DNA of 61,811 bases from Bifidobacterium breve (GTDB lineage Bacteria; Actinomycetota; Actinomycetes; Nanopelagicales; Nanopelagicaceae). A program made the position numbers and the translations under genes. The stretch spans positions 1-61,811 of the forward strand of contig CAMCYA010000004.1 of assembly GCA_945883675.1 (NCBI GenBank), written 5' to 3'. The notes beneath the pieces are model-generated. The model saw only the letters and a program-made list of their open reading frames with translations, had not been told where the DNA came from and made no database searches. Each line of letters opens with the position of its first letter. Within the stretch, counting starts at the first letter, position 1. Below, piece by piece: positions 3,829 through 41,729 of this stretch.

Positions 3829-5066
3829 TATGCAAAGTACTTCTGTGCGTTAACAATTGCATTCACAAGTAGATCGCACTCTTCTTCTTGGTTGTAGAGA
3901 TATAGCGACGCTCTGGTAGTTGCCGGTACACCTAATTTTCGAGTCAAAGGCCAAGCACAGTGATGACCAGTACGGACAGCTAACCCCTGACTGTCTAGAT
4001 ATTGACCAAGATCATGAGGATGGATCTGGCCCACAGTAAATGAAATACAGGAACCACGAAGATCAAGATCGGTGGGTCCGATTATCTTTAAAGTTGGGAC
4101 TTTTTGTAACTGTTCTAAAAAATACTTCGTCAATTGCAATTCGTGTTGATGAATTTTTTCCATTCCGATTGTATTCAAATAATCTATTGCAGCTCCTAAG
4201 CCAACTGCCTGTGCCATATTCGGAACGCCTGCTTCAAATCGTTTAGGCGCTGGTGCCCAAGTGGCAGATTCCATAGTTACGTTTTCAATCATTGATCCGC
4301 CAAAAAGAAATGGCGGTAGATCTTCTAGGACAGAACTCCAAAGGACTCCTACCCCAGTTGGGCCGATTGCTTTGTGTCCGGAGAAAACAAGAAAATCTAC
4401 TCCGAGCGTTTTTACATCTATTGGCATGTGAGGAACAGATTGACATGCATCAAGTACAACAACTGCGCCAACTTCATGTGCGCGAGCCACAATTGCATCC
4501 AACGGATTAATTGTTCCTAAAACATTTGATTGGTGCGTTAAAGCGACAACCTTTGTATTTTCTGTAATCACCGTATGAATGGAGCTAAGGTCTAACCGGC
4601 CATTAGGAAGAACATCAAACCAAGACAGTTGTGCACCCGTGCGCGCCGCTAACTGCTGCCAAGGGATCAGATTTGCGTGGTGTTCCATCTCCGTAACTAC
4701 AATTCGATCCTTAGGCGTTATCGCAAAACGGGAACCAGAAGGTGCATTTCCCATTGCATATGCGATCAAATTCAAAGACTCAGTTGCGCCCTTAGTGAAA
4801 ACTATCTCTTCCGCTTTTGCTCCTAAAAACGAAGCAACCTTTGAACGAGCGCTTTCATATGCATCTGTAGCCTCCTCTGCCAACTGATGAGCTCCGCGAT
4901 GCACCGCAGCATTATGAAACCTATAAAAATCGCCTTCGGCTTCAATTACCGAATTTGGTTTTTGACTGGTCGCTCCACTATCCAGATATATGAGTTTTTT
5001 TCCATCGCGAACCGTTCGGTTAAAGATCGGGAAATCTTTGCGAATAGTTGCGACATCTAAACTCAT
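3828..5066 (-). CDS. sufS: SufS cysteine desulfurase
   Basis: A 412-residue class V (SufS/CsdB-type) PLP enzyme that removes sulfur from cysteine to give alanine and a protein-bound persulfide. The PLP lysine is in FSGHKAIGPTG and the catalytic cysteine is in RTGHHCAWP, the RxGxHC motif of the SufS branch. Full length for the family. It lies 8 bases after sufC and overlaps sufU by one base. It is the sulfur source of this operon, which is the only iron-sulfur assembly system visible in the window. Confidence 0.95.
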   Translation of the reverse strand: MSLDVATIRKDFPIFNRTVRDGKKLIYLDSGATSQKPNSVIEAEGDFYRFHNAAVHRGAHQLAEEATDAYESARSKVASFLGAKAEEIVFTKGATESLNLIAYAMGNAPSGSRFAITPKDRIVVTEMEHHANLIPWQQLAARTGAQLSWFDVLPNGRLDLSSIHTVITENTKVVALTHQSNVLGTINPLDAIVARAHEVGAVVVLDACQSVPHMPIDVKTLGVDFLVFSGHKAIGPTGVGVLWSSVLEDLPPFLFGGSMIENVTMESATWAPAPKRFEAGVPNMAQAVGLGAAIDYLNTIGMEKIHQHELQLTKYFLEQLQKVPTLKIIGPTDLDLRGSCISFTVGQIHPHDLGQYLDSQGLAVRTGHHCAWPLTRKLGVPATTRASLYLYNQEEECDLLVNAIVNAQKYFA

Positions 5067-6146: not shown

Positions 6147-7227
6147 TACTTGCCGCCTTTTCTAACTCAGAATCAATTCGATCCATAATTCGATCCTGGA
6201 CTACTTGATCCCCGATCTCTAGAACTATCTCATTGAAAAATCCACGAACAACTAAGCGTCTAGCATCGTTTACCGAAATTCCTCGAGACATTAAGTAGAA
6301 AAGTTGCTCATCATCAAAGCGACCTGTTGTACTGGCGTGACCGGCTCCAATAATCTCCCCAGTTTCGATCTCTAAGTTTGGAACTGAATCCGCCCTAGCA
6401 CCATCACTAAGAAGTAAATTTCTATTCAGTTCGTAAGTATCAGTGCCTTCTGCAGCAGCACGTATGAGCACATCCCCGATCCACACTGTGTGCGCATCTT
6501 GTCCGGCAAGTGCGCCCTTGTAGTTAACGTTTGATTTTGCATGTGGCACAGCATGATCAACATGAATACGATGCTCAAAGAATTGCCCGGCCGTTGCAAA
6601 GTAAACACCTAAGAGATTAGCTGATGCTCCAGGAGCAATGAATTCAACTGTTGGAAGTATCCGTACAACATCTCCTCCGACGGTAACCGTAACTGACTTA
6701 AATGTTGCATCTTTGTCGATTACCGCGTGATGTCTTGCAGCGTAAACAGATTCGGCTTCAAACTCTTGAAGAGTTACAAACTTCAAATCAGATCCTGGTG
6801 CTAAAGATATTTCCAGATCTTCAGCCAAGACAGTATCTGTTGTGTTTTCCACAATAACTATAGCTCTGGCATTTGATCCCAGGGATATTCTTACTCGCGA
6901 AAACTCAGCAGTATCTACGGCCCCTTTAGATCTTGATAGAAAAATTGGCTCGGCGATCTCTGAATTAGCTGCAATAGATAAGTGAGAAACGCTCTTTGAA
7001 GCACCTCTAATTCGCTCGATAATCACATCATCGCTTTGGGCTAGAGGATTTAAATCTTCACGAGTGAAGGAAACACCGCTAGGTAATCCATTCTTTACGG
7101 AAAGAGATACTCGATCTGAAATGACTGCAACACCATCATGTAATCCGTGAAGGCGTTTGAGTGGAGTAAATCTCCACGCCTCTTCTCTACCAGATGGGGT
7201 GAGATAGTTTGTTGTTAAAACTGACAT
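6139..7227 (-). CDS. sufD: SufD scaffold subunit
   Basis: A 362-residue SufD, paralogue of SufB. The C-terminal family block '[24 protein letters not shown]' (about residues 302-329) is shared with SufB, and the N-terminal half is divergent as usual for SufD. With SufB and SufC it forms the scaffold on which [4Fe-4S] clusters are assembled. The ATG shares one base with the sufB stop (TAATG) and the end overlaps the Rieske gene by 8 bases. Confidence 0.93.
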   Translation of the reverse strand: MSVLTTNYLTPSGREEAWRFTPLKRLHGLHDGVAVISDRVSLSVKNGLPSGVSFTREDLNPLAQSDDVIIERIRGASKSVSHLSIAANSEIAEPIFLSRSKGAVDTAEFSRVRISLGSNARAIVIVENTTDTVLAEDLEISLAPGSDLKFVTLQEFEAESVYAARHHAVIDKDATFKSVTVTVGGDVVRILPTVEFIAPGASANLLGVYFATAGQFFEHRIHVDHAVPHAKSNVNYKGALAGQDAHTVWIGDVLIRAAAEGTDTYELNRNLLLSDGARADSVPNLEIETGEIIGAGHASTTGRFDDEQLFYLMSRGISVNDARRLVVRGFFNEIVLEIGDQVVQDRIMDRIDSELEKAASNV

Positions 7228-8636: not shown

Positions 8637-9325
8637 GCGCGTTCCCCGTTTCTTGATGTTTTCGATCTGCTTGTAGTTGTGGAAGATTTTGGAATAAAAG
8701 TTGTACAAACACCATCACCATGAGCAATAGTTGCAAGTCGCTGCACATGGGTTCCTAAGACTCTAGAAAGTGCAGATGTTTCTGCCTCGCACAGTTGTGG
8801 AAATTCAGCGGCCACGTGTGCAATTGGGCAGTGATGCTGAATCAATTCCTGACCCATCGGCTTATCGTCTACGCTCGCTGCGTATCCCTGTTCGGTTAAG
8901 AACGAAGCTAGGGCTGCGGTTTTATTTGAACTCTTTGCGATTGATTCCAACGCTTTTCGTTCAATGTCATCTGCACGTGATTGCGCAAATTGATTAACTA
9001 GTTGATCGCCAGATTGTGATGACATAAATTTAAGTGCAGCTACTGCCAAGTCATCATACGAATGTTCAAACTGACTTCGACCTTTATCTGACATGATAAA
9101 TACTTTTGAGGGTCTGCCTCTTCCGCGAACTGCCGCAGATCTTGGTTCGCGTGCCTCAATCAATCCATCAGCGATTAGAAGTTCTAGATGTCTTCGAATT
9201 CCTGTAGGCGTAAGCGCAAGCCGCTCCCCTAGAATTGCTGCAGTTGAGGGACCATTTTCTAGAATTGATCGTGCCACGAGATCACGTGTACGGACGTCAT
9301 CACCGGCAATCATTGAACCCGTCAT
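8633..9325 (-). CDS. sufR: SufR iron-sulfur-sensing repressor of the SUF operon
   Basis: A 230-residue winged-helix regulator. The DNA-binding helix-turn-helix spans about residues 15-60, followed by an RGRGRPSK wing. Three cysteines (C166, C179, C207) are spaced C-X12-C-X27-C, the pattern described for mycobacterial SufR that holds a [4Fe-4S] cluster; a His sits where cyanobacterial SufR has a further Cys. The ATG at 9325 is preferred over an in-frame start at 9394, because the operator and a TANNNT box 7 bases upstream both lie inside the longer version. Its stop overlaps sufB. Expected role: repress the operon when clusters are plentiful, release when iron is short or oxidation destroys the cluster. 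Confidence 0.92.
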
Positions 9326-39516: not shown

Positions 39517-40098
39517 CTAAGAAAGAAACTGTTCGGCCTGCTTAGGGTCGATTACCGCCAGAGCGACTTCTTTCATGGTCAGCCGTCTATCCATCGCCGC
39601 TTTTTGTATCCATGAAAACGCTTCCGGCTCGCTCAAGCTAAGGGCGGACATCAAAATGCCCTTTGCTTTGTCAATGGTTTTACGGGTCTCTAACCGATCA
39701 TGAAGATCTGCAACCTCTGTTGCCAAGGTTTTCATCTGATTATGTCTACTCATTGCAATCTCAATTGCGGGCATTAAGTCACCTATTGTAAATGGCTTAA
39801 CCACATATGCCATTACTCCGGCATCACGCGCCCGCTCTACTAACTCTTTTTGCGAGAAAGCAGTGAGCATAAGGACAGGGGCAATCTCAATAATTTTAGA
39901 AGCTGCAGAAATACCATCGAGGACCGGCATTTTTACGTCTAAAATGGCAAGATCTGGTTTGTGCTCAACAGCTAAATCAATTGCTTCTTGCCCGTTCGTT
40001 GCAGCCGCCACAACTTCATAACCAGCACCCTGAAGCATCTCGATCAAGTCCATTCGAATGATCGCTTCATCTTCGGCAACCAGAATACGAACGCTCAT
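39517..40098 (-). CDS. ANTAR-domain response regulator, PdtaR type
   Basis: A 193-residue two-domain regulator. The receiver (about residues 1-120) has the acidic pocket EDE near 8-10, the phospho-acceptor Asp in AILDVKMP (about 54), Thr in LTAF and Lys in VKPF. The C-terminal ANTAR domain (about 125-185) has the AKGILM core that binds paired hairpins in RNA to stop termination. The mycobacterial homologue PdtaR is partnered by the kinase PdtaS, encoded elsewhere; no kinase is here either. The ATG at 40098 has AAAGGA upstream. It is the last gene of the gltB-gltD-pyk-tRNA stretch. Confidence 0.92.
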   Translation of the reverse strand: MSVRILVAEDEAIIRMDLIEMLQGAGYEVVAAATNGQEAIDLAVEHKPDLAILDVKMPVLDGISAASKIIEIAPVLMLTAFSQKELVERARDAGVMAYVVKPFTIGDLMPAIEIAMSRHNQMKTLATEVADLHDRLETRKTIDKAKGILMSALSLSEPEAFSWIQKAAMDRRLTMKEVALAVIDPKQAEQFLS

Positions 40099-40162
40099 CT
40101 TTGACTGATCCTTTCTGGCGATTTCTTGACGCACATGTATCAAGAAGTCCAAATAACTAACG

Positions 40163-40235
40163 TGCCCCGAGTCGGATTCGAACCGACACTATGCAGTGTT
40201 TGAGACTGCCCTCTCTACCGTTGGAGTACCGAGGC
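40163..40235 (-). tRNA. tRNA with anticodon CAA (Leu by anticodon), short class I form
   Basis: A complete cloverleaf of 73 bases. Acceptor stem GCCTCGG / TCGGGGC (two wobble pairs), T8 A9, a 3-base-pair D stem (CTC / GAG) with loop CAACGGTAGA, anticodon stem GCAGT / ACTGC with loop CTCAAAC (anticodon CAA), a 5-base variable region, T stem GTCGG / CCGAC with loop TTCGAAT, and discriminator A. No CCA is encoded. By anticodon it reads UUG (Leu). The 3-pair D stem with a GGTAGA loop and A73 are Leu-like, but bacterial tRNA-Leu normally has a long variable arm, which is missing here. Confidence 0.88.
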
Positions 40236-40289: not shown

Positions 40290-41729
40290 TTATTGATACG
40301 CGGGAACAACACCACCAACTGCATCACCAACGCGGTGCACACGCATTGCATTCGTTGACCCAGGAATTCCAGGTGGAGATCCAGCAACAATGATGACTGT
40401 CTCACCCTGTTTTGCACGCCCAGATTCAATAAGTAACGTATCAGTCTGCTTTACCATTTCATCGGTGTGCTTAACCATCGATGCAATTGCAGGCTCGACT
40501 CCCCATGTAAGTGCAAGGCGATTGTAGGTGCCTACCTCTGGGCTAAATGCAAGGATTGGAATTGGTGACCGCAGCCGCGCCATTCGACGAGCAGAGTCAC
40601 CAGATTGAGTAAAAGTAACTAGGTACTTAGCTTCAACGATTGCACCAACTTCAGCTGCGGCGCGAGTAATAGCACCGCCTTTCGTCCGAGGTGTAGTGCG
40701 AAGTGGTCGAATCATTTCGAATCCACCTTCCTCGGTTCGTGCGATGATTCGGGCCATCGTTGCAACCGCCTCAATAGCAAACGCTCCAACGGCTGTCTCA
40801 CCCGATAACATCAAAGCATCAGCACCATCTAGAACTGCATTCGCGCAGTCGGTGGCTTCAGCTCGAGTCGGAGTTGAATTACTAATCATTGAATCCAACA
40901 TTTGGGTAGCAACAATTACAGGTTTGGCAGCTTCGCGAGCAAGTTCGATGCATCGCTTTTGTACCAGAGGAACCTCTTCAATGGGCATCTCAACTCCAAG
41001 ATCCCCACGTGCAACCATGATGCCATCAAATGCGCTTACTATCTCCTGCAAATTCGCAACCGCCTGTGGTTTTTCGATCTTAGCGATTACTGGGATACGA
41101 ATCCCCACTTCATCCATAATTGCATGAACGTCATCAATATCTTTGGCGTTTCGCACAAAAGATAAAGCAATAAAATCTGCACCGGCACGAAGGCCCCAAC
41201 GTAGATCATCCATATCTTTTTCAGAAAGCGCTGGAACAGAAACGGCTACCCCCGGTAAGTTAATTCCTTTGCTATTGCTTACTAATCCTGGTTCTATAAC
41301 TTTTGTAACTACATCATTGCCTTTAATCTCAATCACTTCAACGGTAACTTTTCCATCATCAATAAGTATGCGATCGCCAGCTTTGCAATCGCTAGGTAGC
41401 CCTTTATAGGTTGTGCCAACCCTTTCCTTACTACCCTCTATTTCATCTGTAGTAATTGTGAAAATATCACCGCGGGAAAGTTCATGAGGTCCATCTAAAA
41501 ATGTAGAGAGACGAATCTTAGGACCCTGCAAATCAATGAGCACTGCCACAGGAACACCGGCCTCTTTTGCCCCTGCTCTAACAAGATCCAAACGCGATTG
41601 ATGGTCAGTGTGTGTGCCATGTGAAAGATTTAATCGAGCCATATTCATTCCAGCATGAATGAGTGCTTTTACTTTTTCGGCGGTATCTACTGCAGGACCC
41701 ATGGTGCAGACGATTTTTGCTCTACGCAT
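40290..41729 (-). CDS. pyk: pyruvate kinase
   Basis: A 479-residue pyruvate kinase converting phosphoenolpyruvate and ADP to pyruvate and ATP. The N-terminal TMGPA block, LIDLQGPKIR (about 65), the catalytic Lys/acid block IPVIAKIEKPQAV (about 212-224), MVARGDLGVE and the DALMLSGETAVG block are all intact, followed by the C-terminal regulatory domain. It starts 10 bases after gltD. A TANNNT-like TAACGT 7 bases before the ATG overlaps the gltD stop codon and may be chance. Confidence 0.96.
   Translation of the reverse strand: MRRAKIVCTMGPAVDTAEKVKALIHAGMNMARLNLSHGTHTDHQSRLDLVRAGAKEAGVPVAVLIDLQGPKIRLSTFLDGPHELSRGDIFTITTDEIEGSKERVGTTYKGLPSDCKAGDRILIDDGKVTVEVIEIKGNDVVTKVIEPGLVSNSKGINLPGVAVSVPALSEKDMDDLRWGLRAGADFIALSFVRNAKDIDDVHAIMDEVGIRIPVIAKIEKPQAVANLQEIVSAFDGIMVARGDLGVEMPIEEVPLVQKRCIELAREAAKPVIVATQMLDSMISNSTPTRAEATDCANAVLDGADALMLSGETAVGAFAIEAVATMARIIARTEEGGFEMIRPLRTTPRTKGGAITRAAAEVGAIVEAKYLVTFTQSGDSARRMARLRSPIPILAFSPEVGTYNRLALTWGVEPAIASMVKHTDEMVKQTDTLLIESGRAKQGETVIIVAGSPPGIPGSTNAMRVHRVGDAVGGVVPAYQ

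Follow-up and report, generated by a model that had tools for sequence, protein, structure and literature searches.

According to a 2023 review, tRNA-Leu carries a long variable arm everywhere except in animal mitochondria. In the E. coli work reviewed in PMC9976931, A73, the A15-U48 pair, G18G19 and A20a were essential for leucylation, the sequence and folding of the variable arm were uncorrelated with leucylation, and the arm was dispensable; tRNA variants without the long arm and the anticodon arm were still active with LeuRS, and U8:A14 matters for Aquifex LeuRS (PMC9976931). The only description of a bacterial class I (short variable loop) tRNA-Leu found in the open literature was a remark on a mycobacterial cluster (PMC6582537), and an earlier one may exist.

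The gene described here occupies 40163..40235 (minus strand) of the window, that is, the whole 61,811-nt stretch of DNA that was analysed, and encodes a tRNA with the leucine anticodon CAA on a class I body. With E. coli-type class II tRNA-Leu it shares a Leu anticodon, A73, A14, A15-U48, G18G19, A20a, a 3-pair D stem with unpaired positions 13 and 22 and, presumably, charging by LeuRS; its variable loop has 5 nt, as against 13-15 nt in the class II tRNA-Leu of its own genome, and class I tRNA-Leu has A9 in place of G9 and usually A at position 46. Animal mitochondrial tRNA-Leu(UUR) also reads UUR, lacks the long arm and is identified by A73 and A14 (PMC9976931), whereas the tRNA here is a full, stable bacterial cloverleaf with A15-U48, from a bacterial genome in which CUN codons are left to class II tRNAs. 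The tRNA-Leu(TAG) of the mycobacterial cluster, likewise actinobacterial and with a short variable loop, is an extra gene beside a normal class II isoacceptor (PMC6582537), whereas the short form of the window is the sole reader of its codons. As in the actinomycete tRNA-ProX (reviewed in PMC11415595), body and anticodon seem at odds, but in the window tRNA the body determinants and the anticodon agree on leucine, and decoding is leucine. A CAA anticodon on a body lacking the long arm is also found in a human gene, but that gene arose by recent mutation of a tRNA-Met and is expressed at a low level, whereas the window tRNA has Leu determinants and is conserved across a bacterial class.

Structure of the tRNA

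A tRNA-Leu(caa) was called by ARAGORN at 40162-40235 (minus strand), RF00005 (Rfam) matched 40163-40235 over the whole model (52.1 bits, E 2.5e-8), and the cloverleaf, with 7/3/5/5 pairs, is the minimum-free-energy fold of the RNA, bearing out the complete 73-nt cloverleaf with anticodon CAA that had been proposed in a sequence-only reading of this DNA. The folding energy by itself is unremarkable (z -1.56), and the mature 3' CCA is not encoded. The first part of the tRNA is GCCUCGG UA CUCC AACGGUAG AGAG G GCAGU CUCAAAC ACUGC, and the second part, after ACUGC, is AUAGU GUCGG UUCGAAU CCGAC UCGGGGC A. These form an acceptor stem (GCCUCGG/UCGGGGC), a D arm (CUC-CAACGGUAGA-GAG, with C13 and A22 opposed and unpaired), an anticodon arm (GCAGU-CUCAAAC-ACUGC) and a T arm (GUCGG-UUCGAAU-CCGAC). 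The anticodon, at positions 34-36 (40200..40202, minus strand; ARAGORN and sequence), reads UUG.

The pairing of a bacterial tRNA (7/3-4/5/5 pairs) and the T-loop consensus are both present. In place of the class II long arm there is a variable loop of 5 nt, AUAGU (positions 44-48, 40188..40192, minus strand, U48 at 40188), so that the earlier count of only five bases between the anticodon and T stems can be read directly from the sequence. Because the feature that defines class II tRNA-Leu, a variable arm of at least 10 nt with a stem, was looked for and is absent, the tRNA is filed as a variant of tRNA-Leu outside class II. The Leu-like D arm and discriminator that had been pointed out are in place: the D arm (40211..40226, minus strand) has 3 pairs, C13 opposite A22, A14 (40222), A15 (40221) and G18G19-U-A20a, and A73, the main leucine identity base, lies at 40163..40163 (minus strand).

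The reality of the family was assessed on 36 diverse class I sequences, from which the CAA genes of the window's lineage were left out. Standard pairs filled 99.2% of pair cells, both sides had changed in 17 of the 21 pairs, and the covariation score was 0.725, compared with 0.179 for shuffled alignments (0/500) and at most 0.155 for slid partners. A covariance model (R1) built from the same 36 sequences, and hence without the window lineage's CAA genes, scored the window tRNA at 80.9 bits and its UAA sister at 90.3 bits, the best other complete tRNA of the window genome tested reaching 60.5 bits. The match of the window tRNA to the class I family is far beyond chance. The gene is kept in its genus and across the class with compensatory changes in the stems, contrary to the refuting outcome named beforehand, a silent pseudogene absent from relatives.

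Leucine identity determinants

For comparison of identity elements, 186 distinct class I tRNA-Leu(UUR) sequences were used, collected with a pattern that fixed AGAG, the anticodon loop and GGTTCRANYCC, and so favours that subset, but left A14, A15, U48, C13 and A73 free. U8, A14, A73 and the C13/A22 non-pair were found in 186/186, GG followed by N-AGA in nearly all, and A15-U48 in 179/186, the other 7 having G15-C48, a compensated change. In the window genome, one and the same D-loop string, AAUGGCAGA, occurs in the class I Leu(UAA) and the class II Leu(UAG) tRNAs, and no D arm with unpaired 13 and 22 was found among the non-Leu tRNAs parsed. The window tRNA has the G18G19 and A20a of a Leu-type D loop, and all of the reviewed LeuRS determinants, U8:A14 included, are present in it. 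The mark of a mistranslating tRNA, synthetase determinants at odds with the anticodon, was not seen, as Leu determinants, anticodon and decoding agree.

These elements suggest that LeuRS would recognise A73, A14, A15-U48 and, in the Leu-type D loop, G18G19 and A20a, and would have no need of the long arm. The leucine signal would thus probably reside in A73, the D arm and the pair 15-48, so that the body could dispense with a long arm. In the window's lineage, the class I CAA and UAA tRNAs take the place of the class II UUR isoacceptors, and the CUN isoacceptors are class II.

Leucine tRNA set and meaning of UUR codons

The window genome (1.19 Mb, 62 contigs, 84.5% complete) gave 43 tRNA matches, in which the other Leu tRNAs are a class II UAG, a class II GAG and a class I UAA (contig 2, 63915-63990); a class II CAA or UAA was not found in this 84.5% complete assembly. 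To allow for the incomplete assembly, we turned to two closed genomes from the same genus (G014 and G015) and inspected every class II-length tRNA match together with the class I matches of lowest score. In both, the tRNAs of class II length comprise Leu(UAG), Leu(GAG), three Ser and one Tyr, and UUR (UUA/UUG) codons are read only by the class I CAA and UAA genes. The class II tRNA-Leu genes that turned up read CUN codons only, and a normal class II tRNA-Leu(CAA), which was to be sought elsewhere, was found in none of the three genomes. In the 34 genomes sampled of the window's family, the class I pattern was present in 34/34 and the class II UUR pattern in 0/34. G014 also contains two low-scoring, odd tRNAs at C1:1036066-1036139 and C1:1070867-1070938, a second tRNA-Ala(TGC)-like and a tRNA-Gly(ACC)-like, which are possibly mobile-element tRNAs or decayed copies.

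Codon meaning was tested on two genes, gltB and leuS, in genomes of the window's family, scoring columns that are invariant in high-GC reference actinobacteria and not UUR-coded there. UUA and UUG make up 556 of the 1291 Leu codons (43%) in these genes. The reference residue at the scored columns was Leu for 136/164 TTA and 93/111 TTG codons, and for 158/190 CTT, 78/95 CTC, 60/75 CTA and 36/51 CTG codons; in gltB and leuS of these genomes, UUR means leucine just as CUN does. The gltB of one relative (G254:C14:57333-61868) was reported with an in-frame TGA, possibly an assembly error or a pseudogene.

In 9/9 near-complete genomes a single LeuRS exceeded the curated cut-off, so that one and the same enzyme would presumably serve tRNA-Leu of both classes. 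With the long arm absent, the Leu determinants kept and UUR meaning leucine, the earlier suggestion of a slimmed tRNA-Leu is supported.

Distribution in bacteria and phages

A strict class I pattern (AGAG-N8-CTYAAA-N12..14-GGTTCRANYCC), which has false negatives such as T stems without GGTTC, was found in 264/346 genomes of the class and, outside it, in 28/137 genomes sampled from other classes of the phylum; the reversed control of the pattern never gave a match. A class II UUR pattern was found in 122/346 genomes of the class, and the tRNA-Leu sets of many genomes are mosaic: Streptomyces-like genomes combine a class II UAA of the bldA kind with a class I CAA, and another family of the class combines a class I UAA with a class II CAA. 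Named carriers of the class I form include Mycobacterium, Nocardia, Rhodococcus, Gordonia, Corynebacterium, Streptomyces, Kitasatospora, Bifidobacterium, Microbacterium, Nocardioides and Candidatus Planktophila versatilis, and the window's own CAA sequence type occurs also in Planktophila and other Nanopelagicales contigs, which makes this freshwater order the window's probable source. About seven of the 80 matches listed fall on contigs labelled as other phyla or unclassified, mostly from MAGs, for which misbinning is possible. The anomaly is lineage-wide rather than local.

Two arrangements were observed in passing. One actinomycete MAG has adjacent, divergent class I Leu-like CAA and UAA genes (L295, 4937-5060), possibly a phage tRNA array. 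In a relative of the window's genus (G007:C3:12500-22500), a class I tRNA-Leu(UAA) is followed by partial 3' copies, the copies lying at 1547-1620, 4836-4873, 6229-6254 and 8677-8737 of that region (L388) and alternating with genes for secreted or surface proteins, several of which share a C-terminal CVKGK..KKV..PKCP.GYKKK motif; the array looks like a cassette array or a genomic island from serial integration at tRNA-Leu(UAA).

BLAST of a Streptomyces-type CAA tRNA against phages gave no match, and the UAA consensus gave 311 records, not all of which need be class I Leu. Eleven phage tRNA-Leu were read (75-78 nt; anticodon UAA, CAA or UAG), from phages of Mycobacterium, Corynebacterium, Streptomyces, Pseudomonas, Bacillus, Rhizobium, Shigella, Lactobacillus, Vibrio and Myxococcus. 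A15-U48, C13/A22 and A73 were present in 11/11, and A14 in 10/11 as parsed, the tRNA of phage Iacchus having been parsed one base out of register; scores with model R1 were 74-90 bits. Class I tRNA-Leu is thus carried by non-actinobacterial phages too, namely those of the last seven hosts named, some with anticodon UAG.

Genomic neighbourhood

Upstream of the tRNA, at a distance of 54 nt, lies pyk (pyruvate kinase; 40290..41729, minus strand), and downstream lies a gene for an ANTAR-domain response regulator (39517..40098, minus strand), which we take to be PdtaR/Rv1626-like. The placement between these two genes had been described correctly, and comparison of loci across the class and phylum showed the neighbourhood to be conserved. 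The ANTAR gene, often with pyk, adjoins the CAA gene in nearly all loci of the window's family, and outside it the same adjacency was found in 51/58 CAA loci, other classes of the phylum included, there usually with the ANTAR gene on the opposite strand and upstream of the tRNA. The UAA sister occurs at unrelated loci; only 4/168 of its gene copies adjoin pyk or ANTAR. The pyk - tRNA - ANTAR location is old, and co-transcription is not general; many families have the ANTAR gene on the other strand, which makes this a conserved location and not an obligatory operon. A regulatory operon was considered and dropped, since gene orientations vary between families. No sigma-70-like promoter was found at the locus, where the consensus may not apply, and a terminator search was likewise negative.

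Alternative explanations

The class I body could mean that another amino acid is charged and that UUG is mistranslated or reassigned, as in the actinomycete tRNA-ProX family. Anticodon and textbook class do disagree, mistranslating tRNAs are known in actinomycetes (PMC11415595), and the body of the window tRNA is most identical to tRNA-Thr (0.71), just over its sister class I tRNA-Leu (0.69), with Asn about equal. Against this, UUG and UUA occupy conserved Leu positions as frequently as CUN codons do, the 186 sequences preserve the Leu identity set, and UUR codons account for the 43% of Leu codons given above with no other reader found. Charging with something else, as the sequence-only reading had allowed, is contradicted for the majority charge by the leucine meaning of UUG and UUA and by the failure to find a further UUR-reading tRNA in these genomes; it is highly improbable, though low-level mischarging may remain. 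Both the conserved neighbourhood and the unexpected class would suit a pseudogene, or a tRNA with a regulatory rather than a translational role linked to pyk or the ANTAR regulator, but this is scarcely credible: all stems covary, the tRNA is needed as the UUG reader, the neighbours are on the opposite strand in many families, and the UAA sister has the same body at loci elsewhere. The special regulatory role once suggested finds no support, and the gene can be explained without it.

A different kind of alternative concerns history and leaves the function as it is, namely that the gene was acquired laterally, from a phage or another phylum, and has since been fixed. The same body occurs in the phages of non-actinobacterial hosts named above and in scattered MAG contigs of other phyla, but the CAA gene occupies a single conserved site in many families of the class, and in further classes of the phylum too; any acquisition must therefore be old. 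Body similarity would allow either descent from class II through loss of the arm or descent from a different class I tRNA. Lateral acquisition is compatible with the functional reading, and we regard it as rather unlikely. The reading that we prefer, with a probability of about 0.93, is that the window tRNA is a functional tRNA-Leu(CAA) with a class I body that reads UUG and is charged with leucine, presumably by the single LeuRS; in this analysis we observed the structure and its covariation, the conservation, the position of the tRNA as sole reader and the meaning of UUR as leucine.

Discussion

The class I family contradicts, for bacteria, the long-arm rule of the 2023 review, and is apparently a structural variant of tRNA-Leu undescribed before. 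Comparable phage genes are already annotated as tRNA-Leu in public records, and what is new appears to be the recognition of class I tRNA-Leu and of its extent, not the genes. Going further, it is conceivable, at somewhat less than even odds, that these tRNAs constitute a second, separate bacterial tRNA-Leu architecture, a single class I lineage with C13/A22, A15-U48, GG-N-AGA and a CAGU-type variable loop that passes between phages and bacteria and has come to decode UUR in much of Actinomycetota. If hosts use the phage copies, LeuRS of several phyla would accept such an architecture.

Class I tRNA-Leu is a natural counterpart of the in vitro finding that LeuRS ignores the long arm, and these essential genes could be mislabelled by isotype checks that rely on the long arm to detect false tRNA-Leu. 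If there is such a second architecture, the leucine tRNA pool of one cell is structurally split, with class I for UUR and class II for CUN, and each codon group could be regulated, or attacked, independently of the other. The division of UUR and CUN by architecture could be relevant to bldA-type codon control, tRNA-targeting nucleases, phage tRNAs and the design of orthogonal tRNAs.
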